Shown here: positions 4,924 through 36,251 of the stretch, in pieces
How the letters are laid out: each line of letters starts with the position of its first letter
How positions within the stretch are numbered: position 1 is the stretch's first letter
Assembly: GCA_016932475.1 (NCBI GenBank)
Contig: JAFGCU010000105.1
Coordinates: 1 to 36,596, forward strand
DNA length: 36,596 bases
DNA from: Anaerolineales bacterium
GTDB lineage: Bacteria; Chloroflexota; Anaerolineae; Anaerolineales; RBG-16-64-43
Reading direction: 5' to 3'
Translations under genes and position numbers: made by a program
Notes under the pieces: model-generated
What the model was told of the DNA's origin: nothing
What the model saw: the letters and a program-made list of their open reading frames with translations, nothing else
The model's database searches: none

Positions 4924-5025
4924 ATGATCCCTATAAGCTATACTTGCAGTGACTTCTTTGGTAATCTTGCCGGTGCAGGCGCCGGCCTGCAAATACCAGT
5001 ATCTATCATTGGAGGTGCGGCATGA
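4924..5025 (+). CDS. Candidate 33-residue leader peptide overlapping the GH4 start
   Basis: An ATG preceded four bases away by GAGGAGG (4913-4919) opens a 33-codon frame that begins MIPISYTC and ends SIIGGAA. Its TGA (5023-5025) shares bases with the ATG of the GH4 gene (5022-5024). This ATGA overlap is the usual sign of translational coupling. A GCAGGC/GCCTGC hairpin (4975-4990) lies inside it. No family recognised. It could be a leader peptide, a small real protein, or chance in a GC-rich region; only the spacing and overlap argue for it. Confidence 0.4.
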   Translation: MIPISYTCSDFFGNLAGAGAGLQIPVSIIGGAA

Positions 5026-15132: not shown

Positions 15133-15327
15133 ATCGACAGGCTTGGAAGCCGTTGCGATTATTTTTAGGAATAGCCCTCCGCCGTTTCACCCTTGGAAAG
15201 GAAGGTGGCCGGATCAAAACCTAAAACCAAAAACCGTGGATTTTCCGCCGTTTTTCTGACGAATCGCCAGCTAGCCGACGCTTTTTTCCCACATGAAGGC
15301 GTCAGAGTCCATGAGGAGGTTTTTATA

Positions 15328-16356: not shown

Positions 16357-16371
16357 TCAGGAGAGATTTCG

Positions 16372-19071: not shown

Positions 19072-20463
19072 ATGGCCGCCACGGAACTCAAGATCGCGTA
19101 CATCGGAGGAGGAAGCCGCGACTGGGCGCGCAAGCTGATGTTCGACCTTGCGCGGTGTCCGGATCTCTGCGGCCGGATCGCGCTCCACGATATCGACTCC
19201 GAATCCGCGCATCGGAACGAACAACTTGGAAACTGGCTCCAGGATCAGCCGGGCGTGGTTTCCCGATGGGCTTATGAGACGGTTCCCGTTCTGGACGAAG
19301 CGCTGCAAGGCGCGGATTTCGTGATCATCTCCATCCAGCCCGGCCCGCTGGAACTGATGGCGCAGGAAATCGCCATTGTGGAAGAATTCGGCATGTTTTT
19401 CCCGGTCGGCGATACGGCCGGCGCACCGGGATTGAACCGCGGACTCCGGTCCGCCGCGATCTACAAGGGGTTCGCCGAAACGATCGCGAGGATCTGCCCG
19501 CAGGCGTGGATCATCAACTACTCCAACCCGATGTCGATCTGCACCCGGACTCTGGCAAAGGTCGCCCCTGCGCTCAAGGTATTCGGGTGCTGCCATGAAG
19601 TTTTCAACACGCAAAAGATGCTCGCGGGGCTGGTCGGCCGTTATGGGGGGCTGGACCCCGCGCCCGATCGCCGCGAGCTGCACTGCAACGTCATGGGGAT
19701 CAACCATTTCACATGGATCGATCGCTGCGAGTACCAGGGTCGGGATGTGCTCGAACTGGTGCGGCATCACATCGCCCAACCCGGAACGGTCCGGCCGTTC
19801 ACCCGGGTGGAAGTGGAAAGCTGGAAGGACTGGTTCCGCAGCGCGGACCAGGTTAAATACGCGCTGCTGCCGCGTTTCGGCCTGCTGGCCGCAGCCGGCG
19901 ACCGCCATCTGGTGGAATTTCTGCCGGGGTTCACCCGTTCGATCGAAGGGCTCTTCCGCTGGGGCGTCATCCGCACTCCGGTTTCCTACCGGATCGAACG
20001 CTGGCGCGCCGCACCGGAAAAAACACGGGACTTGATGGAAGGCCGAACGCCGTTCCATCTCTTGGGAAGCGGAGAAGAGGGCGTGGAACAGATCAAGGCG
20101 CTGGCCGGATCGGGGGAACTGCATTCCAACGTCAACCTGCCCAATCGGGGGCAGATCGCGAATCTGCCCCTGGGCGCCGTTGTGGAAACCAATGCGCATT
20201 TCGGGCGCGACGAAGTCCGACCGCTTGCCGCGGGTTCGCTCCCGCCGGGTCTGGCGCCCCTGGTCGCCCGGCACGTCGCCAATCAGGAATTGATCATCGA
20301 CGCCGCGTTGAGCAATGATCCGGAACTGGCCTTCCAGGCCATGTTCATGGATCCGGCCAACATTCTGGATGTGGATGAAACCTGGAAAATGTTCCGCCGT
20401 TTGGCCGTTCTCAACCGGGTATACCTTCCGGGTTGGAAGCTCGCGGGTCCGGATGCCGGCTGA
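19072..20463 (+). CDS. GH4 alpha-galacturonidase, LplD-like
   Basis: NAD/metal-dependent GH4 glycosidase of 463 residues, close in layout to LplD-type alpha-galacturonidases and distinct from the GH4 at 5022. Seen: KIAYIGGGSRDWARKL (7-22), where the WA after the glycine motif is typical of the LplD/alpha branch; PVGDTAGAPG (111-120); NYSNPM; Cys174-His175 in FGCCHEVF; and Asn211-His212 in GINHFTW for metal and substrate. No signal peptide, hence cytoplasmic. Likely releases galacturonate from imported short oligogalacturonides. Its TGA overlaps the next ATG (20463) by one base. Alpha-glucuronidase or alpha-glucosidase activity is the alternative within this branch. Confidence 0.83.
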   Translation: MAATELKIAYIGGGSRDWARKLMFDLARCPDLCGRIALHDIDSESAHRNEQLGNWLQDQPGVVSRWAYETVPVLDEALQGADFVIISIQPGPLELMAQEIAIVEEFGMFFPVGDTAGAPGLNRGLRSAAIYKGFAETIARICPQAWIINYSNPMSICTRTLAKVAPALKVFGCCHEVFNTQKMLAGLVGRYGGLDPAPDRRELHCNVMGINHFTWIDRCEYQGRDVLELVRHHIAQPGTVRPFTRVEVESWKDWFRSADQVKYALLPRFGLLAAAGDRHLVEFLPGFTRSIEGLFRWGVIRTPVSYRIERWRAAPEKTRDLMEGRTPFHLLGSGEEGVEQIKALAGSGELHSNVNLPNRGQIANLPLGAVVETNAHFGRDEVRPLAAGSLPPGLAPLVARHVANQELIIDAALSNDPELAFQAMFMDPANILDVDETWKMFRRLAVLNRVYLPGWKLAGPDAG

Positions 20464-21647
20464 TGGGCGGGCAGGATAGGGAACCGTTGCGGGAGAATTC
20501 CGCGGAGATTATGGCAAACATGGTGAACGCCCCCTCCAGCGAGTGCTGGTCTGTCCGGATAACGAATTCCGTCCTGCGCCGGTTCTCCGCGGATCGGACG
20601 CGCTGGCATTACGAGGAGGGGCTGGTGGTGAAAGCCTTGGCGGATACCGCGGCCGTCACCGGGGATGACCGCCTGGACCGTTTCGTCCGCGATTGGGTGG
20701 ATTTGTGGGTGACGCCCGACGGGGATATCCGCACCTACCGGATGGAAGAGTTCAACCTGGATCAGGTCTCTCCGGGCCGGTTGCTGTTCCCCGTATTGCG
20801 GCAAACAGGCGAGCCGCGCTACCGCAAGGCTATCGAACGGCTGCGCGAACAACTCCGCCGCCAGCCGCGGACGAGGAGCGGCGGTTTCTGGCATAAGCAG
20901 ATTTATCCGCACCAGATGTGGCTGGACGGCATGTATATGGCCGGCCCGTTTTACGCCGAGTATGCGTCCCTGTTCGGCGACGGCGCGGCGTTTGATGACA
21001 TCGCCGCCCAGGTCGCGTTGATCGAAAAGCACACCCGGGATCCGAAGACCGGTCTTTTGTATCACGGCTGGGATGAAAGCCGGCAGCAGCGCTGGGCTTC
21101 CCCGGAATCCGGATGTTCGCCGAATTTCTGGGGGCGGGGGATGGGGTGGTTCGCTATGGCGATTGTGGATTTGCTGGATTATTTTCCGCCCGGCCACGGC
21201 GGACGATTGATCCTGGCTGAAATATTCCAACGAACCGCCGAGGCGGTTGCGCGCGTGCAGGATCCCGAATCCGGGATGTGGTTTCAAGTTCTCGACCAGG
21301 CCGGCATTCCGGGGAATTACCGGGAATCATCCGCCTCCGCCATGTTCGCGTACGCATTTGCAAAAGGAGTCCGCATAAATTTGCTGTCGTCCGAATATGA
21401 GACCGGCGCCCGCAAAGCATTCCGCGGCCTGGTGGAGCACCAGGTGAGGCGGGATACGGAAAGCGGATGGTCGCTGAACGGGATTTGCTCCGTCGCCGGG
21501 CTGGGCGGCGAGCCGTACCGGGATGGATCCTACCGGTATTACACGGAAGAGAAGGTGGCGACCAACGACCCGAAGGGCGTCGGCGCCTTCATTCTGGCCG
21601 CCCTGGAATTGGAAGCCGCGGACTCGCGCAAGCGCACGCAGGAGTGA
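20463..21647 (+). CDS. GH105 unsaturated (rhamno)galacturonyl hydrolase, YteR/YesR-like
   Basis: Removes the 4,5-unsaturated uronic acid from the non-reducing end of lyase-produced pectin or rhamnogalacturonan fragments. Seen: the (alpha/alpha)6-barrel signature HQMWLDGMYMAGPFYAEYA (about residues 150-168), with the Asp expected to be catalytic; RGMGWFAMAIVDLLDYFP; GNYRESSASAMFAYAFAKG; and a C-terminal ATNDPKGVGAFILAALE. Length is 394 residues, normal. No signal peptide, so cytoplasmic. The start overlaps the preceding stop (TGATG). Its presence implies that unsaturated oligomers reach the cell, although no polysaccharide lyase is encoded in this window. Confidence 0.87.
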   Translation: MGGQDREPLRENSAEIMANMVNAPSSECWSVRITNSVLRRFSADRTRWHYEEGLVVKALADTAAVTGDDRLDRFVRDWVDLWVTPDGDIRTYRMEEFNLDQVSPGRLLFPVLRQTGEPRYRKAIERLREQLRRQPRTRSGGFWHKQIYPHQMWLDGMYMAGPFYAEYASLFGDGAAFDDIAAQVALIEKHTRDPKTGLLYHGWDESRQQRWASPESGCSPNFWGRGMGWFAMAIVDLLDYFPPGHGGRLILAEIFQRTAEAVARVQDPESGMWFQVLDQAGIPGNYRESSASAMFAYAFAKGVRINLLSSEYETGARKAFRGLVEHQVRRDTESGWSLNGICSVAGLGGEPYRDGSYRYYTEEKVATNDPKGVGAFILAALELEAADSRKRTQE

Positions 21648-21650
21648 TGG

Positions 21651-23195
21651 ATGGGCCCGACGTCCGAGCCGATCATGCAAAAAACCTTCTTCAACGTCCG
21701 TGATTTCGGCGCTGTGGGCGACGGCCGGACGATGGAGACTCCGGCGCTGCAGGCCGCGATTGACACCTGCCGCGCCCAGGGCGGGGGGATTGTGTTCGTC
21801 CCGGCCGGGCAGTACCTGACCGGATCGCTTTTCCTGCGGGATGATATTCATCTTCAACTGGATTCCGGGGCGACTCTGCTGGGGAGTGAAAACCCCGGGG
21901 ATTATCCGGTCATCAGCCATCGCTGGGAGGGCGCGGAACAGGAGACATATGCGCCTTTGCTGATGGGACGGAATATAAAGAACATCACCGTCTCCGGCCG
22001 CGGACGGATCGACGGGCGGGGCGGCGTATGGTGGCAGCGGCATAAGGAAAAAACGCTAAAATATCCGCGGCCGCGGCTGGTCTCCTTCGCGGATTGCGAG
22101 CATGTGCTGATCGAAGGAGTCACCCTGGTCAATTCACCCAGCTGGACGATCAATCCGGTGCGCTGCACGGATCTGGCGGTGCGGGGGGTGACGATCGTCA
22201 ACCCCCCGGATTCTCCGAACACCGACGGGATCAATCCGGACAGCTGCCAGAACGTGCGCATCTCGGATTGTTACGTGAGCGCGGGCGACGACTGCATCAC
22301 GCTCAAGGCGGGCAACGAAGCGGAACAGCCGGAGAGGCGGGCGCCCTGCCGCGACATCACGATTGTCAACTGCACCCTGGCGCACGGGCACGGCGGGGTG
22401 GTGATCGGGAGCGAGATGAACGGCGGTGTGCAGAACGTGGTCATCGCCAATTGCGTGTTCACCGGCACCGACCGCGGCATCCGCCTGAAATCCCGCCGCG
22501 GGCGCGGCGGCACCGTCGAAGACATCCGCGCCAGCAACCTGATCATGACAGACGTGCTGTGCCCGTTCACCATGAATCTGTATTACGGATGCGGCGCCTG
22601 GGGCGATCCGGTCGTGTCCGACAAGCGCCCGCAGCCGTGCAACGAGGGCACTCCGCGCTTCCGCCGCATCCACCTGAGCCAGATCACCGCGCGCGGGGTG
22701 AAGTACACCGCCGGATTCTTCTACGGGCTGCCCGAGATGCCCGCCGAGGAAATTTCCCTGAGCGATGTTTCGATCAGCCTGGCGGCCGGGAACGAGGGCG
22801 GGTATCCGGAAATGGCCGACGGCCTGGAGCGGATGCAGCAGGCAGGGTTCTTCATCCGCAACGTCCGCGACCTGACTCTTGAGCATATCGAGGTCGACGG
22901 GCAATCCGGTCCGGCGTTCCGGCTGTTCGATATCGAAGGCGGGAGGATCGGCGCCTGCGGCACATCCACGCCGGATCCCCGGTCGCCGGTCCTGCACCTG
23001 AACAACGTATCCCATGCGCTCATAAACGCCTGCCGGACCGTCCCGGGCACGGATGTGTTTCTGCGCCTGGAGGGCGCGCACACCGGAAAAATCACGCTGG
23101 CCGGCAACGATCTGAGTCAGGCGCGGCAGGCGCTCGACGTGGCGGACGATGTCCCACCCGATGCGGTCGACCGGGATTCGCGCGGAGAAGGATGA
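21651..23195 (+). CDS. GH28 polygalacturonase, cytoplasmic exo-type
   Basis: Inverting hydrolase of alpha-1,4-galacturonan. The family's catalytic set is complete: Asp192 in SPNTDGI, Asp213-Asp214 in SAGDDCITLK, His246 in HGHGG, and Arg278/Lys280 in GIRLKSR. The N-terminal FNVRDFGAVGDG and PAGQYLTGSLFL match bacterial exo-polygalacturonases. Length is 514 residues. There is no signal peptide, so it probably trims imported oligogalacturonides to galacturonate rather than attacking pectin outside. ATG 21651 is three bases after the previous stop; Met9 (21675) is a reasonable alternative. Its TGA overlaps the next start as ATGA. Activity on rhamnogalacturonan is possible. Confidence 0.9.
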   Translation: MGPTSEPIMQKTFFNVRDFGAVGDGRTMETPALQAAIDTCRAQGGGIVFVPAGQYLTGSLFLRDDIHLQLDSGATLLGSENPGDYPVISHRWEGAEQETYAPLLMGRNIKNITVSGRGRIDGRGGVWWQRHKEKTLKYPRPRLVSFADCEHVLIEGVTLVNSPSWTINPVRCTDLAVRGVTIVNPPDSPNTDGINPDSCQNVRISDCYVSAGDDCITLKAGNEAEQPERRAPCRDITIVNCTLAHGHGGVVIGSEMNGGVQNVVIANCVFTGTDRGIRLKSRRGRGGTVEDIRASNLIMTDVLCPFTMNLYYGCGAWGDPVVSDKRPQPCNEGTPRFRRIHLSQITARGVKYTAGFFYGLPEMPAEEISLSDVSISLAAGNEGGYPEMADGLERMQQAGFFIRNVRDLTLEHIEVDGQSGPAFRLFDIEGGRIGACGTSTPDPRSPVLHLNNVSHALINACRTVPGTDVFLRLEGAHTGKITLAGNDLSQARQALDVADDVPPDAVDRDSRGEG

Positions 23196-24261: not shown

Positions 24262-25293
24262 ATGAAAATCGTCACTTTTGGTGAGATCATGCTGCGGCTT
24301 TCCCCGCCGGGCTATCAACGCTTCCGGCAGGCGCGTGCATTGGATGTCGTTTACGGCGGCGGGGAATCGAATGTGGCGGTTTCCCTGGCGGATTTCGGGG
24401 ATACGGCCGAGTTCGTGACCCGCCTGCCGCAAAACGATCTGGGCGAGGCATGCCTCGCCGCATTGCGCGCCCGCGGCGTGCAGACCGGCCATGTGGTGCG
24501 CGGCGGCGAGCGGCTCGGGATCTACTTTCTCGAGCACGGCGCCGCTCAGCGCGGCAGCAAGGTCATTTACGACCGGGCGGGCTCCAGCTTCGCCGGCATC
24601 CAGCCCGGCATGATCGATTGGCCGGCGGTGCTCGCCGACGCCGACTGGTTCCACTGGACCGGGATCACCCCCGCCGTCTCGCAAAGCGCCGCGGAAACCT
24701 GCCTCGAAGCCGTCAAGACCGCCGAGCGGCTGGGGAAAACCGTATCGTGCGACTTGAATTACCGGGCCAAACTTTGGAAGTGGGGCAAGCCGGCCGCCGA
24801 AGTGATGGCGGAACTTGTTTCCCATTGCGATCTCGCCGTGGGAAATGAAGAAGACGCCGAAAAGGTGTTCGGCATCCGCGCTCCGGAATCCGACGTCGCC
24901 GCCGGAAAAGTGGAGGCGGAAAAATACAAGTCCGTATGCGAGGCGCTGGTCAAGCGGTTCCCCAATCTGCACAAGGTGGCCGTCACCCTGCGCGGATCGC
25001 TTTCCGCCAGCCGCAACACCTGGTCCGGCGTGTTATGGACCAAAAGCGGATTCCACACCGCGCCGGTGTACGACATCCTTCCGATCGTCGACCGGGTGGG
25101 GGCGGGGGATGCGTTCAACGGAGGCCTGATCCACGGTTTGCGCGCCTACCCGGACGATCCGGACAAGGCGCTTCGCTTCGCCGTGGCCGCCTCGTGCCTC
25201 AAGCACAGCATCCCCGGGGATGCCAACGCGGTGACGGCGGCGGAAGTGGAGCAGCTGATGGCGGGCGATGCCTCCGGACGGGTGTCGCGGTAG
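24262..25293 (+). CDS. kdgK: 2-keto-3-deoxygluconate kinase (PfkB family)
   Basis: Phosphorylates 2-keto-3-deoxy-D-gluconate to KDPG with ATP. Seen: KdgK-type N-terminus VTFGEIMLRLSPPGYQRF, substrate-binding VYGGGESNVAVSLADFG (about 30-46), CDLNYRAKLW (KdgK signature, about 157-166), and the PfkB catalytic DRVGAGDAFNGGLIHGL (about 277-293) with the general-base Asp. Length is 343 residues. AGGAGG lies about ten bases upstream, partly inside the hairpin arm. The FAH-family gene starts six bases after the stop. It joins the KduD output to the aldolase at 26452. Confidence 0.92.
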   Translation: MKIVTFGEIMLRLSPPGYQRFRQARALDVVYGGGESNVAVSLADFGDTAEFVTRLPQNDLGEACLAALRARGVQTGHVVRGGERLGIYFLEHGAAQRGSKVIYDRAGSSFAGIQPGMIDWPAVLADADWFHWTGITPAVSQSAAETCLEAVKTAERLGKTVSCDLNYRAKLWKWGKPAAEVMAELVSHCDLAVGNEEDAEKVFGIRAPESDVAAGKVEAEKYKSVCEALVKRFPNLHKVAVTLRGSLSASRNTWSGVLWTKSGFHTAPVYDILPIVDRVGAGDAFNGGLIHGLRAYPDDPDKALRFAVAASCLKHSIPGDANAVTAAEVEQLMAGDASGRVSR

Positions 25294-25299
25294 ATCCCG

Positions 25300-26199
25300 A
25301 TGCGGCTGGTCACGTTTGCCCTCGACGGCCGGGAACGGATCGGAGCGCAGGTGGAGCGTTCCGGGAAGCCCTGCGTGCTGGATCTGAACCAATCCCATTC
25401 GGTGCTGCCGGCCGAGATGAACGCTTTCCTGACCGCGGGCGAGCCGGCTATGCTCATGGCCCGCCGGGCGCTGCAGGAAGCAAAGGAGAACGCGTTCCTG
25501 CCTGAGGCGGATATTCGTTTGACGGCGCCGGTTCCGCATCCCGGGAAAATACTTTGCCTCGGGCATAATTACGACGATCATATCGGCAAGGACCGGACCC
25601 GGCCTTCTGAATTTCCGACTTTCTTCTGCAAGACCGCCAACACGGTGATTGGGCCGGGGGCGCCGATCGTGATCCCGCCCGAAACGGCGAAGGCGGATTT
25701 CGAAGGAGAACTGGCGGTGGTGATCGGACGGCGGGCGCGGCGCATCGCCGAAGGGGATGCGCCATCGTACGTCGCCGGGTATACCATCTTCAACGACGTT
25801 AGCGCCCGCGATTATCAGAAACGCACCAGCCAGTGGATGATCGGAAAATCGTTCGATACCTTCGGCCCGATGGGGCCGGCCCTGATCACGGCCGACGAGA
25901 TCCCCGATCCGCACGCGCTGGATCTGGCGCTCACCCTGAACGGGGTGCTGCGGCAGAAAACCAACACCGGCCGCATGATCTTCACCGTTCCGTTTCTGAT
26001 CGCGACCCTGAGCGCGGTGATGATGCTGGAGCCGGGGGATGTGATCGCCACCGGGACTCCGGCCCGCACGCCGCCGGAACCGGGCTCCCCTGAGTTTATG
26101 CAGCCGGGCGATCTGGTGCGGATCACGGTGGAAAAAATCGGGGTGTTGGAGAATCCGGTGGTTGCGGAGACGATCCCGGGGTCTGGGTCCCCGGCTTGA
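25300..26199 (+). CDS. Fumarylacetoacetate-hydrolase-family enzyme
   Basis: Metal-dependent C-C hydrolase, tautomerase or decarboxylase of the FAH superfamily, 299 residues. Seen: ILCLGHNYDDH (about 84-94), metal ligands Glu135 and Glu137 in DFEGELAVVIG and Asp166 in FNDVSARD, Lys183 in GKSFDTFGPMGP, and TGTPARTPP. It lies between KDG kinase and KDPG aldolase, six bases after the former, so it probably handles a keto-deoxy sugar acid. Characterised relatives cleave 2,4-diketo-3-deoxy sugar acids in non-phosphorylative fucose/rhamnose routes. No known step of the KDG pathway needs it, so the substrate is open. The final residues run into the repeat that follows. Confidence 0.8.
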   Translation: MRLVTFALDGRERIGAQVERSGKPCVLDLNQSHSVLPAEMNAFLTAGEPAMLMARRALQEAKENAFLPEADIRLTAPVPHPGKILCLGHNYDDHIGKDRTRPSEFPTFFCKTANTVIGPGAPIVIPPETAKADFEGELAVVIGRRARRIAEGDAPSYVAGYTIFNDVSARDYQKRTSQWMIGKSFDTFGPMGPALITADEIPDPHALDLALTLNGVLRQKTNTGRMIFTVPFLIATLSAVMMLEPGDVIATGTPARTPPEPGSPEFMQPGDLVRITVEKIGVLENPVVAETIPGSGSPA

Positions 26200-26264: not shown

Positions 26265-26424
26265 CGTCATGCCGGCGCCTGCCCTCGCGGAGCATCCCGG
26301 CTCGCTCTGTTCTATGAGCCGGGATGGATGCGAAGCGAGGGTGTACTAAGCCGGCATCCAGAGACCATAATGGGAAAATTTTCCGAGTGTTATGGACCTC
26401 GGCCAAGAACGCGCCGGGGTGACG
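26265..26424. repeat. Inverted repeat, CGTCATGCCGGCGC type, containing a shared 16-bp word
   Basis: Arms CGTCATGCCGGCGC (26265-26278) and GCGCCGGGGTGACG (26411-26424) pair with two mismatches. Inside, CATCCCGGCTC and GAGCCGGGATG form a second stem. CCTGCCCTCGCGGAGC at 26278-26293 occurs again at 27166-27181. The 26200-26451 gap has no other content. Confidence 0.65.
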
Positions 26425-26451
26425 ATAATTGAAACGGCGAGGAAGGCTAAG

Positions 26452-27129
26452 ATGGCCAATTTTCAACGCTTGGAAGTGACGAACACCCTACTCGAGACGG
26501 GCCTGCTGCCGCTTTTCTACAACGGCGATCTGAATACCGCCGTCGAGCTGGCGGCGGCATGCGTGCGGGGCGGCGCGCGGGCGGTGGAATTCACCAACCG
26601 CGGCGAAGCGGCGTATCCGGTCTTTTCCGACCTGGTGCGCCATTTTGCCAGGGCGGATCCGGCGGTGATCCTGGGGGTCGGGTCGGTGATGGATGCCCCG
26701 ACCGCGGCGCTGTACCTCGCCGCCGGCGCGAATTTCATCGTCAGCCCGAGCCTCAACCCCGAAATCTCGCGGTTGTGCAACCGGCGCAAGGTGCTGTATC
26801 TGCCCGGATGCGCGACCGAAACCGAGATTGCGACGGCCGAGGAACTCGGCGCGGAGATCTGCAAGATCTTTCCGGCGGATGCGGCCGGGGGGCCGAAATT
26901 CATCCGCGCGGTCATGGCGCCGTGCCCGTGGCACCGGCTGCTTCCGACGGGCGGCGTCGACGCGACCGATGAGAGCGTGAGCGAGTGGATCCAGGCGGGC
27001 GCGGCGGTGCTTGGCATGGGGAGCAAACTCGTCACGAAGCCGCTGGTGGCGGCGAAGGATTTCGACGGCCTGGCCGCCAAAACCGCCGCATGCATCGGCT
27101 GGGTCAGGAAGGCGCGGGAATCGAAATAA
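26452..27129 (+). CDS. eda: KDPG/KHG aldolase
   Basis: Class I aldolase splitting 2-keto-3-deoxy-6-phosphogluconate into pyruvate and glyceraldehyde-3-phosphate. Seen: Glu46 in AVEFTNRG, the VGSVMDAP turn, SPSLNPE, Schiff-base Lys138 in EICKIFPAD, and LLPTGGVD. Length is 225 residues. The ATG at 26452 is preferred: GAGGAAGG lies about six to seven bases upstream, whereas the in-frame ATG at 26392 sits within the repeat. It follows KDG kinase and the FAH-family gene and closes the KDG branch. The EFTNRGE and CPWHRLLPTGG wording resembles the subgroup annotated as bifunctional 4-hydroxy-2-oxoglutarate/KDPG aldolase. Confidence 0.9.
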   Translation: MANFQRLEVTNTLLETGLLPLFYNGDLNTAVELAAACVRGGARAVEFTNRGEAAYPVFSDLVRHFARADPAVILGVGSVMDAPTAALYLAAGANFIVSPSLNPEISRLCNRRKVLYLPGCATETEIATAEELGAEICKIFPADAAGGPKFIRAVMAPCPWHRLLPTGGVDATDESVSEWIQAGAAVLGMGSKLVTKPLVAAKDFDGLAAKTAACIGWVRKARESK

Positions 27130-27364
27130 CGAAGGCCGCCTCCGCGGGCGAAGAGCATCGATGAGCCTGCCCTCGCGGAGCGTCACCGCTCGGTTGTAAA
27201 CCGTAAACGGTGATGATTGCGCGGGGGGGCGATGCGAAGAGTCCGTGAATGCGGAAGCGGAGAGTCTTCAAAAGCAGATGCTTCGCATCCATGCAAAAAA
27301 CGCAGGCCAAGCGCTTAGCAAGACACACTGTTCCCATGAATCCATGATACGAAAGGCGGAAACC
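27130..27364. other. Gap before the isomerase, with repeat fragment
   Basis: No gene. CCTGCCCTCGCGGAGC (27166-27181), shared with 26278-26293, is followed by a CGTCACCG/CGGTGATG stem (about 27180-27216), so this is a partial copy of the preceding element. An in-frame upstream extension of the next gene begins here but has no family similarity. Confidence 0.5.
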
Positions 27365-28180
27365 ATGTCTTATTTTGAATCCGTACCCGCGAAAGAAGGA
27401 TTGAACAAAGTTGCGGGAAATCCGTTCAAGCTGCTCGATTTTCAATTGCTCATCCTTCCCGACGGCGGGAGTTATTCGGCGGCTACCGGAAGCCGCGAAG
27501 TCCTGCTGGTGATCCTCGGCGGCAAAGCGGCCGTGAAAGCCGGATCGAAAACCTTCGCCGGGATCGGCGGGAGGCCGAATCCATTTTCGGGCAGACCGCA
27601 ATCGGTGTATCTCCCGTGCGGGGCCGAGTACGCCGTCACAGCCCAGGGGCGCCTGGAAGCGGCATTGGTCAGCGCGCCCTCGGAACTGAAAACCGATCCG
27701 TATGTGATCGGACCCGAAAAGATCACGAGCGGGGTATGGGGCGCGGCCAACTTCAGCCGCAATTTCCACCAGATCCTCACAGTGGCCGGCCAGCCGGATC
27801 TCCCCGCTCAGCGGCTGATCGTCGGGGAGACGTACACGCCTTCGGGGAATTGGAGCACCTTCCCGCCGCACAAACACGAAAAGGAAGACCTGCCGCGGGA
27901 GGCGTTCCATGAGGAGTTATACTTCTTTAAAGTTTCGCCTCCCGATGGGTTCGGCTTGACGCGGTACTACAACAACGAGGTGGATACCGGCTTTGTCGTG
28001 CGCGACAACACCATCCTGATGGCGCCGAACGGCTTCCACACCGTCGTCAGCGCGCCTGGGTACACGACATATTATTTGTGGGCGCTGGCGGGCAACCACC
28101 GCACACAGGCCACCGCCGACGATCCGGCTCTGGCGTGGGTCGGCCGGACCGTGCCGATGCTGAAATCGCTGGGACATTAA
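27365..28180 (+). CDS. IolB/KduI-family cupin isomerase
   Basis: Metal-dependent bicupin isomerase of 271 residues. Features match 5-deoxy-glucuronate isomerase (IolB) rather than classical KduI: SYSAATGSREVLLVILGG (37-54), GNWSTFPPHKHE (161-172) with metal ligands His169 and His171, FHEELYFFKV (181-190) with a Glu ligand, and the distal His225 in NGFHTVV. The next gene is KduD and no other inositol gene is present, so here it probably isomerises 5-keto-4-deoxyuronate, the KduI step. The ATG at 27365 follows a GGCGG-type site. Family assignment is firm; reaction assignment is from context. Confidence 0.8.
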   Translation: MSYFESVPAKEGLNKVAGNPFKLLDFQLLILPDGGSYSAATGSREVLLVILGGKAAVKAGSKTFAGIGGRPNPFSGRPQSVYLPCGAEYAVTAQGRLEAALVSAPSELKTDPYVIGPEKITSGVWGAANFSRNFHQILTVAGQPDLPAQRLIVGETYTPSGNWSTFPPHKHEKEDLPREAFHEELYFFKVSPPDGFGLTRYYNNEVDTGFVVRDNTILMAPNGFHTVVSAPGYTTYYLWALAGNHRTQATADDPALAWVGRTVPMLKSLGH

Positions 28181-28243: not shown

Positions 28244-29008
28244 ATGATCCTTGATTCTTTTCGCCTGAATGGAAAAGTGGCGCTGGTGACGGGAGCCCGT
28301 CAGGGGCTCGGGAGGGCGCTGGCGCTCGCGCTCTCGGAAGCCGGCGCCGACATCGCCGCGCTCGACCGTAACGATGTCGCTGAGACTTGCCTGGCTGTGG
28401 ATGCAATAAAGCGCCGCTCGATGGCGGTCAAGTGCGATCTGCGCGAGGCGACGCCGGCCAGCTTGAAACAAATTGTGGATGGCGTGGTTTCCGAACTCGG
28501 ACGGCTGGATATACTGGTCAACAACGCGGGGATCATCCGCCGTGCGCCGGCGGCCGATTTCAGCGAGGCCGACTGGGATGACGTCCTGGCGATCAACCTC
28601 AAGGCGGTGTTCTTCCTTTCCCAGGCGGCGGGAGGCGTGATGCTCGCCCAGGGCGGGGGAAAGATCATCAACATCGCCTCGATGCTTTCGTTTCAAGGCG
28701 GGATCCTGATCCCCTCGTACACCGCCGCGAAAAGCGGCGTGGCCGGCATTACGCGCGCTCTCGCCAATGAATGGGCCGCGCGCGGGGTCAACGTCAACGC
28801 CATCGCGCCTGGATACATGGAGACCGCAAACACCGCCCCGTTGCGCGCGGACCCCAAACGTTCGGCCTCGATCCTCGAACGGATCCCGGCCGGCCGCTGG
28901 GGAACTCCCGAAGACCTTGCGGGCACGGCGGTCTTTCTCGCCTCCGCCGCATCCGATTACCTGCACGGGGCGATCCTGCCGGTCGACGGCGGATGGCTGA
29001 CACGCTAG
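28244..29008 (+). CDS. kduD: 2-dehydro-3-deoxy-D-gluconate 5-dehydrogenase (KduD), SDR family
   Basis: NAD(P)-dependent short-chain dehydrogenase reducing 2,5-diketo-3-deoxygluconate to KDG. Seen: N-terminal FRLNGKVALVTGARQGLGRA (6-25), typical of KduD, with the cofactor glycines; NNAGIIRR (93-100); catalytic Ser146, Tyr159 and Lys163 in IASMLSF and SYTAAKSG; and APGYMETANTAPLRAD (about 188-203), characteristic of KduD. Length is 254 residues, usual. GAGGGAG (28230-28236) precedes the ATG. UxaC begins one base after the stop, so the KDG branch and the hexuronate branch belong to one transcript. Confidence 0.9.
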   Translation: MILDSFRLNGKVALVTGARQGLGRALALALSEAGADIAALDRNDVAETCLAVDAIKRRSMAVKCDLREATPASLKQIVDGVVSELGRLDILVNNAGIIRRAPAADFSEADWDDVLAINLKAVFFLSQAAGGVMLAQGGGKIINIASMLSFQGGILIPSYTAAKSGVAGITRALANEWAARGVNVNAIAPGYMETANTAPLRADPKRSASILERIPAGRWGTPEDLAGTAVFLASAASDYLHGAILPVDGGWLTR

Positions 29009-29009
29009 G

Positions 29010-30434
29010 ATGAGCATGCAAAAGCCAAGCCTGCCGCCCGACCGGTGTTTCGGACCGGATCCCGCGCAAAAGGAGATAGCCCGTCATCTCCATGGCCTGA
29101 CCGCGGAACTGCCGCTCATCTGCCCGCACGGGCACGTGGACGCGCGGATGTTCTCCGATCCGGATTATTCGTTCGGCTCGCCCGCCGATCTCCTGATCAT
29201 CCCCGACCATTACGTCACGCGCATGCTCTATTCGCAGGGCATCCCGCTGGAAAAGCTGGGGGTGCCGCGGCGGGACGGCGGTCCGGTGGAGACCGATCAC
29301 CGGCGGATATGGCAGCTGTTCGCCGAGAATTTTTTCCTGTTCCGGGGCACCCCCAGCGGCTTGTGGCTGACCCACGAACTGAGCGAGGTTTTCGGCGTCG
29401 AAGAAAAACTCGACGGCGGATCGGCTGGGCGGGTGTACGACCATATCGCGGCGCAGCTGGCCACTCCTGCCTTCCGGCCGCGGGCCATGTTCGAGCGGTT
29501 CCGGATCGAAGTGCTGTCCACGACCGACGCCGCCGCCGACCCGCTCGCCGCGCACAAGGAGATCCGCGATTCCGGATGGAAGGGCAGGGTGATCCCCTGC
29601 TTCCGCCCGGATGCGGTTGTCAACATCGAAGCCCCCGGCTGGCGCAGCGCGGTCGATGCGCTCGCCAACGCGGCCGGATTGGAAATCCATTCCCACACGG
29701 ATTTCATCCGGGCGCTTGAGAATCGGCGCGCCTTTTTCCGAACCATGGGTGCGAAGGCGGCCGATCACGGCGTGATCGAAGCCTTCACCACGGAATTAAC
29801 AGGAGCGGAAGCCGAAGCGCTCTTTCAACGGGCGCTGAGGGGGAAACTGGAACCGGATGATGCGCGCCGGTTCACCGCCCATATGCTGATGGAATTCGCG
29901 CGGATGAGCGTGGAGGACGGGCTGGTGATGCAGCTGCACGCCGGCGCACTCCGCAATCACAACGAAGCGGTGTTTGAGCGCTTCGGAACCGACAAGGGCT
30001 GCGACATTCCGGTCGCCGGAGAATTCACCCGGGGCCTGCGGCCGCTGCTAACCAAGTTCGGAAACGATCCGCGCCTGATGCTGATCCTCTTCACGCTCGA
30101 CGAGGCGACCTATGCGCGCGAACTGGCCCCGCTGGCGGGGCATTATCCCGCGCTGCGGGTCGGGCCGGCGTGGTGGTTCCACGACAGCCTGAACGGGATG
30201 ACCCGTTACCGCGAGCAGATCGTCGAAACCGCCGGTTTGCACAACACCGCCGGATTCAACGATGACACCCGGGCCTTCCCGTCCATCCCCGCCCGACACG
30301 ATCTTTCGCGCCGGGTGGATGCCAACTGGATCGCCGGGTTGGTGGTGCGGGGGATAGTCGGGATGGACGATGCGGAAGAAATGATCCGGGATACAGCCTA
30401 CCGGCTGGCGAAGAAGACATACCGTTTGGAGTAG
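29010..30434 (+). CDS. uxaC: Glucuronate/galacturonate isomerase
   Basis: Isomerises D-galacturonate to D-tagaturonate and D-glucuronate to D-fructuronate in the cytoplasm. Seen: amidohydrolase-fold metal motif CPHGHVDA (38-45), DHYVTRMLYSQGI, FRLF-like FENF(F)LFRGTP, CFRPDAV, QLHAGALRNHN (about 310-320), and GPAWWFHDSLNGM (about 390-402), all typical of UxaC. Length is 474 residues, normal. The start may be 29010 or Met3 at 29016. It lies one base after kduD. It is the entry step for free galacturonate released by the GH28 and GH4 enzymes. Confidence 0.93.
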   Translation: MSMQKPSLPPDRCFGPDPAQKEIARHLHGLTAELPLICPHGHVDARMFSDPDYSFGSPADLLIIPDHYVTRMLYSQGIPLEKLGVPRRDGGPVETDHRRIWQLFAENFFLFRGTPSGLWLTHELSEVFGVEEKLDGGSAGRVYDHIAAQLATPAFRPRAMFERFRIEVLSTTDAAADPLAAHKEIRDSGWKGRVIPCFRPDAVVNIEAPGWRSAVDALANAAGLEIHSHTDFIRALENRRAFFRTMGAKAADHGVIEAFTTELTGAEAEALFQRALRGKLEPDDARRFTAHMLMEFARMSVEDGLVMQLHAGALRNHNEAVFERFGTDKGCDIPVAGEFTRGLRPLLTKFGNDPRLMLILFTLDEATYARELAPLAGHYPALRVGPAWWFHDSLNGMTRYREQIVETAGLHNTAGFNDDTRAFPSIPARHDLSRRVDANWIAGLVVRGIVGMDDAEEMIRDTAYRLAKKTYRLE

Positions 30435-30496
30435 AAACGCATGCCCTTTCGAATCGTGGTTTTCCGTTGTTGCAGCATTCCAGGGAGCGGCAGCTT

Positions 30497-31978
30497 ATGA
30501 CTACGGCGTTCCAGGCTCTCGAATTAAAGACGGATCCGCGCTCGGTGGTCAGTATTTCCGAAGCGGAATGCGGTCTATGCGAAGCGGAAGGCAAAAAGCG
30601 GCTTGCGTTGTACGCTGAAACGGGCTCGCCTGCGCTGGGTGAATTCGAGGGAGCGGCGTCCGAGGTCCATGGAAAAACCTTGCTCCTCGGCCCGCTCAGC
30701 CCCCGGAATGCCGGCGCCTTGCGCGCCCAAATCCCATGGCTGCAACCGCGCCGGTGGGGGATGCGCACCTCCGCCGGACTTGGGGACCGGCTGGGGCTGG
30801 CGACGCCCGGGCACGTGCGGGCGATGCGCGCCGCAGGCGGATCGATCGGACCGATCTTCGCACAGCAATCGATGCGGGAGATGGTGCGGACGGGGCGCAC
30901 GCCCCAGCAGGTCATGGACGACGCCACTTGGGGAATATTCCAGGAGGGATGGCGGGAAGGGGTCGGGGCGGATGCGGACCATTTGAAAAGCCCGGCCGAC
31001 ATCGATGCCTGCATAGCGGCAGGTTTCACTTTTTTCACCGTCGACCCCGGAGAATTCGTCGACGGCTCCGCGGAGACGGCGGACCTTTCCACTCTGCGCG
31101 AGCAAGCCGGCAAACTCCCGCCGGACGCCCAACCGCGCGCCACCGGGCTGCTCGGGCGCTCGATCGACGTCGAGGGGCGGACTCTGCACTTCGACGAGCC
31201 GGCGCTCCTTAAAGCCGTCGTCAAGTACGGGCGGGCGGTGGCGCACGTCGCCGCGATGAGCCGCCACCTGGCGCGGGCTGCCGCCGGCAGACTGTGCGAG
31301 TTGGAAGTCTCGGTCGACGAAACCGAACAGCCGACCTCGGCGGTGGAGCATGTTTACATCGCCAACGAGCTCCGGCGGTTGGGAGTGGAATGGGTGAGTC
31401 TCGCGCCGCGTTTCATCGGCCGGTTCGAAAAGGGCGTCGATTACATCGGGGATGTCGCGGCCTTTGAGGCGGACCTGGCGGTGCATGCCGCCATCGCCCG
31501 GCAATTCGGACCGTACAAACTCAGCCTGCACTCCGGCTCGGACAAGTTCAGCATCTATCCGGCGGCGATGCGCCAGACACGCGGATTGGTACACTTAAAA
31601 ACGGCTGGGACCAGCTACCTCGAAGCGTTGCGGACGGTCGCGGCGATCCAGCCGGATTTCTTCCTGGAGATTTACGTCTTCGCCCGCGAGCGGTACGAAA
31701 CCGACCGGGTGAGCTACCATGTATCCGCGCAGCTCGAGCGCGCGCCGCTGCCGGCGGCCGTGACCGATCCGCCCGGCCTCCTCAACCAGTTTGATGCGCG
31801 CGAGATTCTGCATGTGACCTTCGGCTCGGTTCTGACGGCGCAGGCGCCGGGCGGCGGCCTGAAATATTACGGGCGGCTGCGGGAACTACTGCAGTCGCAC
31901 GCGGACCGTTACGCGGGCAACCTGGAGGCGCATTTCCTCCGCCATCTTAAACCCTTCACCTCGATTGGAGTCCGGTAG
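30497..31978 (+). CDS. uxaE: Tagaturonate epimerase, UxaE family
   Basis: Interconverts D-tagaturonate and D-fructuronate, a step described for Thermotoga maritima UxaE that replaces the classical tagaturonate reductase/altronate dehydratase branch. Seen: the conserved stretches RWGMRTSAGLGDRLGLATPGH (first 20 of which are near residue 90), FAQQSMREM, ADHLKSPADIDAC, FFTVDPGEFV, YKLSLHSGSDKFSIYP and LHVTFGSVL, as in this family. The 493-residue length matches. ATG 30497 is chosen with AGGGAG upstream; an in-frame alternative at 30467 adds ten residues. The fructuronate reductase starts three bases after its stop. No uxaB or uxaA is present, which fits the use of this epimerase. Confidence 0.88.
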   Translation: MTTAFQALELKTDPRSVVSISEAECGLCEAEGKKRLALYAETGSPALGEFEGAASEVHGKTLLLGPLSPRNAGALRAQIPWLQPRRWGMRTSAGLGDRLGLATPGHVRAMRAAGGSIGPIFAQQSMREMVRTGRTPQQVMDDATWGIFQEGWREGVGADADHLKSPADIDACIAAGFTFFTVDPGEFVDGSAETADLSTLREQAGKLPPDAQPRATGLLGRSIDVEGRTLHFDEPALLKAVVKYGRAVAHVAAMSRHLARAAAGRLCELEVSVDETEQPTSAVEHVYIANELRRLGVEWVSLAPRFIGRFEKGVDYIGDVAAFEADLAVHAAIARQFGPYKLSLHSGSDKFSIYPAAMRQTRGLVHLKTAGTSYLEALRTVAAIQPDFFLEIYVFARERYETDRVSYHVSAQLERAPLPAAVTDPPGLLNQFDAREILHVTFGSVLTAQAPGGGLKYYGRLRELLQSHADRYAGNLEAHFLRHLKPFTSIGVR

Positions 31979-31981
31979 GCC

Positions 31982-32815
31982 ATGACCAACCCCTCGTCTC
32001 GTTCATCCAAGGATCTTTCCGGCACCGTCGCGGTCGTCACCGGCGGGGGCGGCGTGCTGTGTGGCGCGATGTCGCGTGCGCTCGCGGAGGTCGGCGCGAA
32101 GGTGGCCGTGCTGGATCTCAAACCGGATGGGGCGGAGAAAGTCGCGGAGGCGATACGCGCCGAAGGCGGCGAGGCGCTCGGCGTGGGCTGCGACGTTCTC
32201 GACCGGGCCAGCGTGGAAGCGGCCGCGGAGAAGACCCTGAAGGCGTTCGGGCGGGTGGATTTCCTCGTCAACGGCGCCGGGGGCAACAAACCCCAGGCGA
32301 CGACCGGCGCGGATGCGGCGTTCTTCGACCTGCCGGCGGATGCGCTGCGCTGGGTGTTCGATTTGAACCTGATGGGCGTCGTGCTTCCCAGCCAGGTGTT
32401 CGGAAAGCTGATGGCCGCGCAGAAGCGCGGCGTCATCCTGAACATCGCCTCGATGAACGCCATCCGACCGCTGACGCGCATTCCGGCTTATTCGGCGGCC
32501 AAAGCGGGGGTGGCGAATTTCACCCAATGGCTGGCGGTCCATATGGCGCAGGAATATTCGCCGGAGATCCGGGTCAATGCGATCGCTCCGGGGTTTTTCC
32601 TGACGAACCAGAACCGGTTCCTGCTGACGGACAAGGCCACCGGGGAGCTCACGCCACGCGGACGGACGATTCTCGACCATACGCCGATGAAAAGATTCGG
32701 CGCCCCCGAAGACCTGATGGGCACCATGCTGTGGCTGCTTTCGCCGGCATCCGCATTCGTCACCGGGATTATCGTCCCGGTGGACGGCGGGTACTCGGCG
32801 TTCGGGGGCGTTTAG
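31982..32815 (+). CDS. uxuB: SDR-type D-fructuronate reductase (mannonate oxidoreductase)
   Basis: Short-chain dehydrogenase that should reduce D-fructuronate to D-mannonate, of the type used in Bacillus and Thermotoga rather than the long-chain E. coli UxuB. Seen: cofactor motif VVTGGGGVLCGAMSRALAE (18-36), Asp at the end of the second strand (VLDLKPDG), NGAGGNKP (97-104), catalytic Ser157, Tyr170 and Lys174 (IASMNA, AYSAAKAG), and the long substrate loop FFLTNQNRFLLTDKATGELT characteristic of this subgroup. Length is 277 residues. It sits three bases after uxaE, directly upstream of the LarA homologue. The symbol is by function, not by E. coli homology. Confidence 0.85.
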   Translation: MTNPSSRSSKDLSGTVAVVTGGGGVLCGAMSRALAEVGAKVAVLDLKPDGAEKVAEAIRAEGGEALGVGCDVLDRASVEAAAEKTLKAFGRVDFLVNGAGGNKPQATTGADAAFFDLPADALRWVFDLNLMGVVLPSQVFGKLMAAQKRGVILNIASMNAIRPLTRIPAYSAAKAGVANFTQWLAVHMAQEYSPEIRVNAIAPGFFLTNQNRFLLTDKATGELTPRGRTILDHTPMKRFGAPEDLMGTMLWLLSPASAFVTGIIVPVDGGYSAFGGV

Positions 32816-32896
32816 CGGCGCAAGGAAAGTAAAAATGGGACCGGGAAAATGCAAAAGGTTCCCGGGTATGATGGTTTTGAAGGCCAACTCGCGATC

Positions 32897-34186
32897 ATGA
32901 ATACCATTCAGGTCGTCGCCGAATCCGGTCAGACGCTTCCGGAAGAAACCGTCCGGCAGACTCTCCGCCATGCCCTGGAAGGGGAATTCCGCGGGCGCAA
33001 GGTTCTGGCGCTCATTCCCGATCACACCCGGTCCCTGCCGCTCCCGTTTCTGTTCCGCACCCTGGTCGAGGCGTTGCGCGACGCGGAGAAACTTGATTTT
33101 CTGGTGGCGCTCGGGACTCACCCGCCTCTTTCCGAAGAGCGTTTGTGCGGCCTGGTAGGCATCCGGCCCGAGGAACGGCGGACGCAATACCGGCGGATCG
33201 GAGTATTCAATCACGAATGGGAAGATCCCTCCGCGTTGGTTTCGCTGGGATGGATTTCGGAGGGCCTGATTCATCAATTCGCCGGCGCGCGCTGGCACCC
33301 GTCATTGGGCGGGGATACGGAAGTGCGGGTCAACCGGCACCTTCTGGCCTACGACCACATCCTGATCGTCGCGCCGACTTTCCCGCACGAAGTAATCGGC
33401 TTTTCCGGAGGCGGAAAGTACATCATCCCCGGCGTATCGGGGCCGCAGATGATCAACACCACCCACTGGCTGGGGGCGCTGGCCGGGGTAGTGGGAACCA
33501 TCGGGATAAAGGATACGCCTGTGCGGGCAATGGTGAACGCGGCGGCCTCCAAGCTCCCGACCCCGGTGACGCTGATCGGGATGGTCGTGGAAGGCCACGA
33601 CCTGGCCGGGTTGTTTATCGGAGATCTGCTTTCCGCATGGAGCGCCGCCGCCGACCTGTCTGCGCAGCGGCACATCCGCCGGTGCGCGAAGCCCTTCCGG
33701 AAGATACTCTCCTGCCCGATGCCGATGTATGACGAACTGTGGACGGCCGCCAAGGCGGTCTACAAACTGGAACCGGTCGTGGCCGAGGGCGGGGAAATCA
33801 TCGTCTATGCGCCGCACCTCGACACCGTCAGCCGGACCCACGGGAAATACATCTACGAGGTCGGGTATCACATCATGGCGTATTTTCTCGAGGACTGGGA
33901 GCGGTTCAAGGATTTTCCGCTGGCGGTGCTTGCGCACAGCACGCACGTGCGCGGATCGGGAAGGATGGAAGGCGGGGCGGAACGGCCGCACGCGAAGATC
34001 ACCCTGGCCAGCCGCATCTCCGCCGAGGAGTGCGCGAAACTTCAACTGGGCTATTGCGATCCGGCCTCCATCCGGCCGGAAGAATGGCAAAACCGCGAGG
34101 AGGATGGGATGCTGTACGTCCCGAATTCCGGCGAGATTCTCTTCCGACTACAGGCCGGAGAACAGGCGGCCGGGGAGGTTGGATGA
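32897..34186 (+). CDS. LarA-family nickel-pincer racemase/epimerase homologue; candidate mannonate/gluconate 2-epimerase
   Basis: Member of the lactate-racemase (LarA, DUF2088) family, 429 residues from this start; an in-frame ATG at 32849 adds 16. Family knowledge: LarA binds a nickel-pincer cofactor through a Lys and a His, with two catalytic His, and inverts the hydroxyl at C2 of hydroxy acids. Seen: DHTR (42-45), His75 in GTHPPLS, His164 in PHEVIGFSGG, Lys174 in GGGKYIIPG and His190 in NTTHW. The spacings His-10-Lys and Lys-16-His equal those of the characterised racemase. It lies between fructuronate reductase and gluconate kinase and overlaps the latter by four bases (ATGA). No UxuA is present, so mannonate-to-gluconate conversion is the best guess. 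Family firm; substrate inferred. Confidence 0.82.
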   Translation: MNTIQVVAESGQTLPEETVRQTLRHALEGEFRGRKVLALIPDHTRSLPLPFLFRTLVEALRDAEKLDFLVALGTHPPLSEERLCGLVGIRPEERRTQYRRIGVFNHEWEDPSALVSLGWISEGLIHQFAGARWHPSLGGDTEVRVNRHLLAYDHILIVAPTFPHEVIGFSGGGKYIIPGVSGPQMINTTHWLGALAGVVGTIGIKDTPVRAMVNAAASKLPTPVTLIGMVVEGHDLAGLFIGDLLSAWSAAADLSAQRHIRRCAKPFRKILSCPMPMYDELWTAAKAVYKLEPVVAEGGEIIVYAPHLDTVSRTHGKYIYEVGYHIMAYFLEDWERFKDFPLAVLAHSTHVRGSGRMEGGAERPHAKITLASRISAEECAKLQLGYCDPASIRPEEWQNREEDGMLYVPNSGEILFRLQAGEQAAGEVG

Positions 34187-34743
34187 ACGCGACCGGATTG
34201 ATCGTGATGGGGGTTGCCGGGTGCGGAAAAACCACCGTCGGAAAGGCGCTGGCGGCGCGGCTGGGGTGGGATTTCTTCGATGCGGACGGGTTTCATCCGC
34301 CCGCGAATGTGGCCAAGATGGCGGCGGGCATCCCGCTCGACGATGAAGACCGTGCGCCGTGGCTGGCCGCGCTGCACGAACTGCTGACCCGGACGTTGCA
34401 GGCGGGAAGGCATCCGGTGCTGGCCTGCTCCGCGCTGAAACAACGGTACCGCGATACTCTGCTGGCGTGCAACGACGGAATCCGGGTGGTGTACCTGCGG
34501 GGAAGCTACGGCCTGATCCTCGCGCGGATGAACGACCGCACCGACCATTATATGAAGCCGGGCATGCTGCGCAGCCAGTTCGACGCGCTCGAAGAGCCGC
34601 GGGATGCGCTGATCGTGGATATCACCCCGACGGCGGAGGAGATTGTGGAAAACGTCCTGTTCCTCCTCCACAAGGATGACGCATCTCCGGCGCCGGCGGG
34701 AAGAAACGGGAACATAAAATCCGCCGTTCCATACCGCCGCTGA
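34183..34743 (+). CDS. gntK: Gluconate kinase
   Basis: ATP-dependent kinase of the GntK/shikimate-kinase-like P-loop family, converting D-gluconate to 6-phosphogluconate. Seen: P-loop GVAGCGKTT (10-18), FFDADGFHPPANVAKMAAG (about 31-49), which is the gluconokinase substrate signature, PLDDEDRAPWL, VLACSALKQRYRD, and HYMKPGMLRSQFDALEEP. It has 186 residues with a short low-complexity tail. The ATG overlaps the LarA homologue stop (ATGA), so the two are translationally coupled. With 6PG dehydrogenase next, gluconate is evidently made by, or supplied to, this operon. Confidence 0.93.
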   Translation: MNATGLIVMGVAGCGKTTVGKALAARLGWDFFDADGFHPPANVAKMAAGIPLDDEDRAPWLAALHELLTRTLQAGRHPVLACSALKQRYRDTLLACNDGIRVVYLRGSYGLILARMNDRTDHYMKPGMLRSQFDALEEPRDALIVDITPTAEEIVENVLFLLHKDDASPAPAGRNGNIKSAVPYRR

Positions 34744-34787: not shown

Positions 34788-36251
34788 ATGGAAAAAGCGG
34801 ATATCGGATTGATCGGACTGGCCGTGATGGGCCAGAATCTCGTTCTCAATATGAACGATCACGGCTTCGCGGTGGCGGTCTTCAACCGCACGCCGTCGAA
34901 GGTGGACGAGTTCCTGCAGGGGGAAGCCCGCGGCACAAAGGTCGTCGGCGCGCACTCGCTCGAGGAATTGGCCGGCCTGCTGAAAAAACCGCGGCGGGTG
35001 ATGCTGATGGTCAAGGCGGGAAAGCCCGTGGACGACCTTATCGAGAGCCTGCTGCCGTTCCTGGAAAAAGGCGACATCATCATCGACGGCGGCAATTCCA
35101 ATTTTGCCGACAGCATCCGCCGCACCGCCTACCTCGAATCCAAAGGCTTGTGGTTCCTCGGGGTGGGGATATCCGGCGGCGAAGAAGGCGCTCGCAACGG
35201 CCCGTCGATCATGCCGGGGGGGTCGCGCAAAGCCTGGGAGGCTGTGCGGCCGATCTTTCAATCCATCGCCGCGAAGATCGCGCGCGCGGACGGGTGGGAA
35301 GACCCCTGCTGCGACTGGGTCGGGGAAAACGGGGCGGGGCATTACGTCAAGATGGTCCATAACGGGATCGAATACGGCGATATGCAGCTGGTTGCCGAGG
35401 TCTACCACCTGATGAAGGAAGGCTTGGGCCTCCCGCCCGAGGCGATGCGGGACGTATTCGCCCAATGGAACGAGGGCAAACTGAATTCATACCTGATCGA
35501 GATCACCCGCGATATCCTGGCTTTTAAGGACGAAGACGGACAGCCGCTGGTGGACAGAGTCCTCGACACCGCCGGGCAAAAGGGGACGGGGCGCTGGGCG
35601 GGGATCTCCGCGCTCGAACTCGGGATTCCGCTGACGATGATCACCGAGGCTGTCTCGGCGCGGTCGCTTTCAACGCTCAAGGACGAGCGGACCACGGCTT
35701 CCCTCCGGCTTGGCGGACCGCCGCCGCGCATCCCGAATGCGGGCGAATCGTTTCTTGCGGACCTGGGGGAGGCGTTGTACGCGTCGAAAATCATCTCCTA
35801 CACCCAGGGCTACATGCTGATGCGCGCCGCCGCAAAGGAGTACAAATGGGATATGGACTACGGCGGGATCGCCCTGATGTGGCGCGGAGGGTGCATCATC
35901 CGTTCGGTCTTCCTCGGGAAGATCAAAGAAGCCTATGATAAAAACCCCTCGCTTACCAATCTGCTGCTGGATTCTTATTTCAAGGAACAGATCGAGCTCG
36001 CGCAGGACGCCTGGCGGCGGGTGATCGCCGCCGCGGTGATGTCGGGCATCCCGATGCCGGCCATGATGAGCGCCCTCTCGTTCTACGACAGCTACCGCCG
36101 GGCGTGGCTGCCGGCCAACATGATCCAGGCCCAGCGCGATTATTTCGGCGCGCACACCTACGAACGGGTGGACCGGCCGCGCGGGGAATTCTTCCACACC
36201 AACTGGACCGGGCACGGGGGGAAAGTAACCTCGTCCACCTACTCGGCGTAA
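34788..36251 (+). CDS. gnd: 6-Phosphogluconate dehydrogenase, decarboxylating
   Basis: Oxidatively decarboxylates 6-phosphogluconate to ribulose-5-phosphate, CO2 and NADPH. Seen: GLIGLAVMGQNLVLNMNDHG (7-26), NRTPSKV (33-39) whose Arg favours NADP, IIDGGNSN, GISGGEEGARNGPSIMPGG (127-145), catalytic Lys188 and Glu195 in YVKMVHNGIEYGDMQL, and RDYFGAHTYER near the C-terminus. Length is 487 residues, the long dimeric form. GGAAGGGCAGGG precedes the ATG. It is the last gene of the cluster, 44 bases after gntK, and a long inverted repeat follows. It gives the pathway a pentose-phosphate exit. Confidence 0.95.
   Translation: MEKADIGLIGLAVMGQNLVLNMNDHGFAVAVFNRTPSKVDEFLQGEARGTKVVGAHSLEELAGLLKKPRRVMLMVKAGKPVDDLIESLLPFLEKGDIIIDGGNSNFADSIRRTAYLESKGLWFLGVGISGGEEGARNGPSIMPGGSRKAWEAVRPIFQSIAAKIARADGWEDPCCDWVGENGAGHYVKMVHNGIEYGDMQLVAEVYHLMKEGLGLPPEAMRDVFAQWNEGKLNSYLIEITRDILAFKDEDGQPLVDRVLDTAGQKGTGRWAGISALELGIPLTMITEAVSARSLSTLKDERTTASLRLGGPPPRIPNAGESFLADLGEALYASKIISYTQGYMLMRAAAKEYKWDMDYGGIALMWRGGCIIRSVFLGKIKEAYDKNPSLTNLLLDSYFKEQIELAQDAWRRVIAAAVMSGIPMPAMMSALSFYDSYRRAWLPANMIQAQRDYFGAHTYERVDRPRGEFFHTNWTGHGGKVTSSTYSA

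Follow-up and report, generated by a model that had tools for sequence, protein, structure and literature searches.

The window considered here is a stretch of 36,596 nucleotides from an Anaerolineales bacterium (contig JAFGCU010000105.1 of assembly GCA_016932475.1), and it carries towards its end a set of sugar-acid genes in the order uxaC, uxaE, mannonate oxidoreductase, larA, gntK and gnd, all on the forward strand. The uronate isomerase UxaC is encoded at 29010..30434 (NF002794, 513 bits against a cut-off of 387; PF02614), followed by the tagaturonate 3-epimerase UxaE at 30497..31978 (PF16257, 457 bits), whose reading frame opens at 30467 with an ATG at 30497, and by an SDR-type D-mannonate oxidoreductase, or fructuronate reductase, at 31982..32815 (NF006132, 375 bits, cut-off 281). 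The larA homologue occupies 32897..34186, and its stop shares four bases (ATGA, 34183-34186) with the ATG of gntK, which encodes a gluconokinase at 34183..34743 (TIGR01313, 173 bits, cut-off 114). The row ends with the 6-phosphogluconate dehydrogenase Gnd at 34788..36251 (TIGR00873, 744 bits, cut-off 427), the only protein with a 6PGD domain in the genome. A scan of the operon for promoters and terminators yielded, as consensus matches only, 21 terminators versus 12.5 in shuffled sequences and 5 promoters versus 2.6.

Upstream of uxaC, and again on the forward strand, lie the genes of a second branch of uronate metabolism. A pfkB-type sugar kinase at 24262..25293 (PfkB) is read as a probable 2-keto-3-deoxygluconate (KDG) kinase, KdgK, because its neighbours are eda, kduI and kduD, namely a KDPG/KHG aldolase at 26392..27129 (NF005499, 291 bits, cut-off 275; PF01081), a KduI/IolB-family isomerase at 27245..28180 (PF04962, with TIGR04378 barely above its cut-off), the true start of which is probably downstream of 27245, and the 2-dehydro-3-deoxy-D-gluconate 5-dehydrogenase KduD at 28244..29008 (TIGR01832, 374 bits, cut-off 339). 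The kdgK-eda-kduI-kduD branch can handle unsaturated uronates released by lyases and does not accept mannonate. Between kdgK and eda there is a gene for a fumarylacetoacetate-hydrolase family protein (25300..26199, PF01557); it is kept in the corresponding locus of a different Anaerolineales genome (L039), and the predicted pathway needs no such step.

Further upstream, the window holds a rhamnogalacturonan/pectin degradation locus, in which GH4, GH88/105-type and GH28 enzymes are encoded consecutively at 19072-23195 (forward strand), ahead of the uronate operon; a second GH4 gene is found at 5022-6317. The regions 15193-17250 and 17349-18986 (both forward strand) hold an ABC-type permease (PF00528), then a second permease-like reading frame and a lipoprotein-like reading frame that by eye has the look of a binding protein and matched zero Pfam families. 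No transport ATPase gene was noticed within the window. The reading frame at 11132-14743 (forward strand) encodes a protein of 1203 residues that combines a LacI-type sugar-binding domain, a histidine kinase, a response regulator receiver and an AraC-type DNA-binding domain, its N-terminus having no match to a DNA-binding domain; this protein is likely a one-protein sugar sensor and regulator of the pectin genes.

The larA homologue runs on the forward strand from an ATG at 32897 to a TGA ending at 34186 and encodes a product of 429 residues. There is an alternative in-frame ATG at 32849, but 32897 is preferred since alignments with homologues begin at residues 1-5 counted from that start. The product contains the Lar_N domain (PF09861, 69.6 bits against a Pfam cut-off of 23.3), and an alignment that included Lactiplantibacillus plantarum LarA and the Thermotoga maritima enzyme GntE2 equates D42, R45, H75, H164, K174, H190 and K286 with D72, R75, H108, H174, K184, H200 and K298 of LarA. 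Both the trio that binds the nickel-pincer nucleotide (NPN) cofactor (R45, K174, H190) and the catalytic set (D42, H75, H164, K286) are thus complete. All seven positions are invariant across a 32-sequence alignment, and since this alignment takes in malate- and lactate-racemase-type outgroups at about 25% identity, the conservation is not a matter of chance. The original prediction, that of a LarA homologue with its pincer-binding and catalytic positions kept, is confirmed: the spacings from H164 to K174 (10 residues) and from K174 to H190 (16 residues) equal those of H174, K184 and H200 in LarA, and D42 and R45 (both within the DHTR motif) and K286 can be added to the residues that it had named. 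The DHTR motif it had pointed to is present as well, although it is not diagnostic in itself, as its second residue varies among homologues, which show DGTR, DATR or DYTR.

Which kind of LarA homologue this is can be approached through its nearest relatives. The best match among solved structures is T. maritima GntE2 (PDB 4NAR), with a phmmer E-value of 3e-56 versus 7e-7 or worse for LarA, and the identity to GntE2 is 33% over the full length. A structure model of the product (pLDDT 94.5) superimposes on 4NAR with a Z-score of 50.1 and an rmsd of 1.8 over 400 residues, in which Foldseek concurs, whereas the Z-scores of lactate and malate racemases do not exceed 35 and that of LarA itself is about 32.5-33. 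The specificity residues are a loop behind the catalytic histidine, E165-V166, and W282 in helix 11, where LarA has F175-F176 and Y294; a loop of E-V/S together with a tryptophan in helix 11 is the substrate motif given for groups 18-20 of the superfamily in PMC7583248, and it is present here. In a tree of 94 proteins, with GntE2 as its sole GntE of measured activity, the product falls within a clade of 55 rows, mainly from Chloroflexota plus some Deinococcota, with support of 100/100. A long branch, also supported at 100/100, splits off the lactate/malate-type proteins and leaves GntE2 within the ingroup on the side of the product, albeit on a long branch of its own, so that its exact placement is unsure. 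Among the NCBIfam models of LarA type, the highest score was obtained with NF052594, the equivalog for a group 18 putative hexonate epimerase, yet its 155.5 bits are far below the cut-off of 500, and for this reason the product is not assigned to group 18. Sequence, predicted structure and specificity motif all place the larA product among the D-gluconate 2-epimerases (GntE). The suggestion that this LarA homologue acts on something other than lactate is thereby borne out, and the tree analysis proposed at the time places it with GntE-type groups and not with a group of unrelated substrate.

A LarA-type enzyme would require a supply of cofactor, and no larB, larC or larE lies within the window. 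The original prediction had reasoned that the cofactor must be made from another locus, had proposed a search of the same genome, and had held that absence of these genes from a complete genome would refute it. All three were located, one copy each, clustered on a separate contig (C39) of the genome and on its reverse strand: larE at 20473-21252 (300 bits), larB at 19701-20321 (295 bits) and larC at 15680-16795 (486 bits), each over its cut-off. An orphan LarA without cofactor supply is therefore ruled out. No other LarA homologue was found in the genome, and because the larA product of the window is the sole one, it is probably the client of larBCE.

The genome was also searched for other fates of mannonate. 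The assembly is a draft of 129 contigs, 97.8% complete, and absences, which rest on family searches, are in this sense not absolute. Within it, neither UxuA nor the altronate-dehydratase-type domain PF20629 was found; ManD was not found, the two enolase-superfamily matches both being enolases; and neither gluconate dehydratase nor Edd was found, the single IlvD/EDD protein scoring best as ilvD. With none of the exits through UxuA, ManD, altronate dehydratase and gluconate or 6-phosphogluconate dehydratase found, saturated hexuronates seem to have a single way out in the draft genome, which leads from mannonate through gluconate and 6-phosphogluconate to ribulose-5-phosphate.

Taken with its context, the larA product is very probably a GntE-type, NPN-dependent C2-epimerase that converts D-mannonate to D-gluconate, in agreement with the earlier suggestion of a gluconate 2-epimerase; the operon carries the flanking steps, and GntE2 is the best solved relative. 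In the predicted route, galacturonate would be isomerised to tagaturonate by UxaC and epimerised to fructuronate by UxaE, glucuronate would enter at fructuronate via UxaC, and the SDR mannonate oxidoreductase would reduce fructuronate to D-mannonate at the expense of NAD(P)H. The larA product would then form D-gluconate, GntK would phosphorylate it to 6-phosphogluconate, and Gnd would yield ribulose-5-phosphate and CO2, with NAD(P)H regained. If the mechanism is as in LarA, either H75 or H164 would accept the proton of the C2 hydroxyl while the C2 hydride passes to the pyridinium of the NPN cofactor, and the other histidine would reprotonate the 2-keto intermediate from the opposite face; R45, K174 and H190 would bind the cofactor and its nickel, and the cofactor itself would be produced by the LarB, LarE and LarC proteins encoded on the separate contig.

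This type of enzyme and this route are already known from other bacteria, and both pathway and activity have been published for T. maritima. The route by mannonate epimerisation was put forward by Rodionova et al. in 2012, as cited in PMC6978723, and the activity of GntE2 as a D-mannonate 2-epimerase was demonstrated in 2020, with a measured kcat of 197/s and a kcat/KM of about 11 per s per mM for D-mannonate (PMC7583248). The UxaR-regulated galacturonate locus of T. maritima is arranged as gnd-uxaRED-gntEK (PMC3750489), and uxaE, a reductase, gntE, gntK and gnd are common to both loci. T. maritima also carries uxuA, which was not found in the genome studied here, whereas kdgK, eda, kduI and kduD are additional members of the window operon. 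GntE2, also designated LarAH20, shares with the larA product its fold, all cofactor and catalytic residues, the tryptophan of helix 11 and the glutamate behind the catalytic histidine, but at 33% identity the two differ in that the larA product has V166 and A285 where GntE2 has S156 and G286. L. plantarum LarA (5HUQ/6C1W) has in common the NPN-binding and catalytic residues and the overall fold, but differs in the three specificity residues, and the window locus lacks a lactate context. Corynebacterium glutamicum GntE1 (LarAH19) and LarAH15 of Phytophthora nicotianae belong to the same superfamily, and both are measured D-mannonate/D-gluconate 2-epimerases (PMC7583248, PMC11770544).

Among the alternatives, a reversal of the last two steps, whereby the kinase acts on mannonate and the larA product then epimerises 6-phosphomannonate to 6-phosphogluconate, has a precedent in the mannonate-kinase route of Lactobacillus suebicus (PMC6978723), which likewise leads from mannonate to 6-phosphogluconate in a redox-neutral manner but places phosphorylation before epimerisation. 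Extracts of that organism supplied with mannonate and ATP formed 6-phosphomannonate and 6-phosphogluconate, and no gluconate appeared when ATP was omitted (PMC6978723); a gluconokinase-type kinase adjoining larA is compatible with this order. Against it stand the use of free D-mannonate by the structurally closest enzyme, GntE2 (PMC7583248), the lack of any report of a phosphorylated substrate for a LarA-family enzyme in the portions of the literature covered here, and the fact that the L. suebicus 6-phosphomannonate 2-epimerase activity is known without its gene, and we regard the kinase-first order as unlikely. Were it true, it would provide a phosphorylated substrate of a kind unreported for the LarA superfamily in that same portion of the literature, and would point to the kind of gene that may lie behind the L. 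suebicus activity.

It appears similarly improbable that the larA product epimerises some other sugar acid of uronate metabolism, such as an aldarate or a mannonate isomer. Another substrate has been suggested for C. glutamicum GntE1 in view of its high KM for D-mannonate, the larA product has an E-V loop (inside the E-V/S motif of groups 18-20) where GntE2 has E-S, and gluconate genes are missing near part of the larA-homologue family; however, the gluconokinase and 6-phosphogluconate dehydrogenase genes directly downstream and the mannonate oxidoreductase gene directly upstream, the latter adjoining larA in 33 of 56 close homologues, argue for D-mannonate and D-gluconate. A true lactate or malate racemase that came to lie in a sugar-acid operon by chance would account for the Lar_N domain and the identical catalytic residues, but is so improbable that it can be considered ruled out by the tree, with its 100/100 branch, by the differing specificity residues, and by the NCBIfam racemase models, which score 65 bits against a cut-off of 460 for lactate racemase (the NF033504 equivalog) and 89 against 500 and 64 against 462 for malate racemase.

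The neighbourhood of larA was compared across 56 close homologues from a genome collection, scored for nearby uxaC, uxaE, mannonate oxidoreductase, gntK and gnd. At least one uronate or gluconate gene was near larA in 45 of them, and the gene directly adjoining was the mannonate oxidoreductase in the 33 cases already mentioned, gnd in 15 and gntK in 10, nearly always on the same strand. In L039 the entire order from kdgK to gnd is preserved. By this neighbour test, uronate context was absent from 11 of the 56 loci, some on short contigs; at one of these (L085), an FGGY sugar kinase is two genes away from larA. A more remote set of 30 homologues, from Planctomycetota, Verrucomicrobiota and other groups, had uronate or gluconate genes nearby in 15 cases, and as the context extends to only this share, the wider LarA-homologue family may have additional roles. 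The context recurs in Chloroflexota and Deinococcota and less often in Planctomycetota and others. In a sample of 61 genomes, made up of the present one and 60 relatives that for the most part belong to its order, UxaE was found in 4 of 8 genomes with a close larA homologue versus 0 of 53 without (Fisher p 1.3e-4, a value that ignores kinship). UxuA, which occurs in 1 of the 61 genomes, is too rare across the order for an anti-correlation with larA to show in this sample.

The evolutionary history of larA may differ from that of its neighbours. In L039, larA and gnd are 64% and 74% identical to their window counterparts, whereas in a genome of the same genus as the one studied here larA falls into a different subclade, at 48% identity, and stands beside gnd (73%), uxaC (72%) and the oxidoreductase (67%). 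Across the same-genus and same-family genomes together (L032 and L033), the range is 45-48% for these other-subclade larA genes and 63-74% for gnd, uxaC and the oxidoreductase. Because the identity pattern of larA departs from that of gnd, uxaC and the oxidoreductase, the sequences suggest that larA has probably been exchanged between lineages, also within a genus, while its operon partners were retained.

The larA enzyme would thus very probably allow a bacterium of the Chloroflexota type to route the sugar acids of pectin into the pentose phosphate pathway. The present case contributes an apparently obligate nickel-dependent version of the route, which is mildly new, along with the signs of larA exchange within a genus. 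Since the search of the draft genome turned up no other way out for mannonate, growth on saturated uronates derived from pectin may depend strictly on nickel and larBCE, which is a testable prediction. Nickel-dependent hexuronate catabolism would be extended from Thermotoga to many genomes of Chloroflexota and Deinococcota, and probably to some Planctomycetota and others, and the annotation of many homologues would be aided, from ‘lactate racemase’ to hexonate epimerase.
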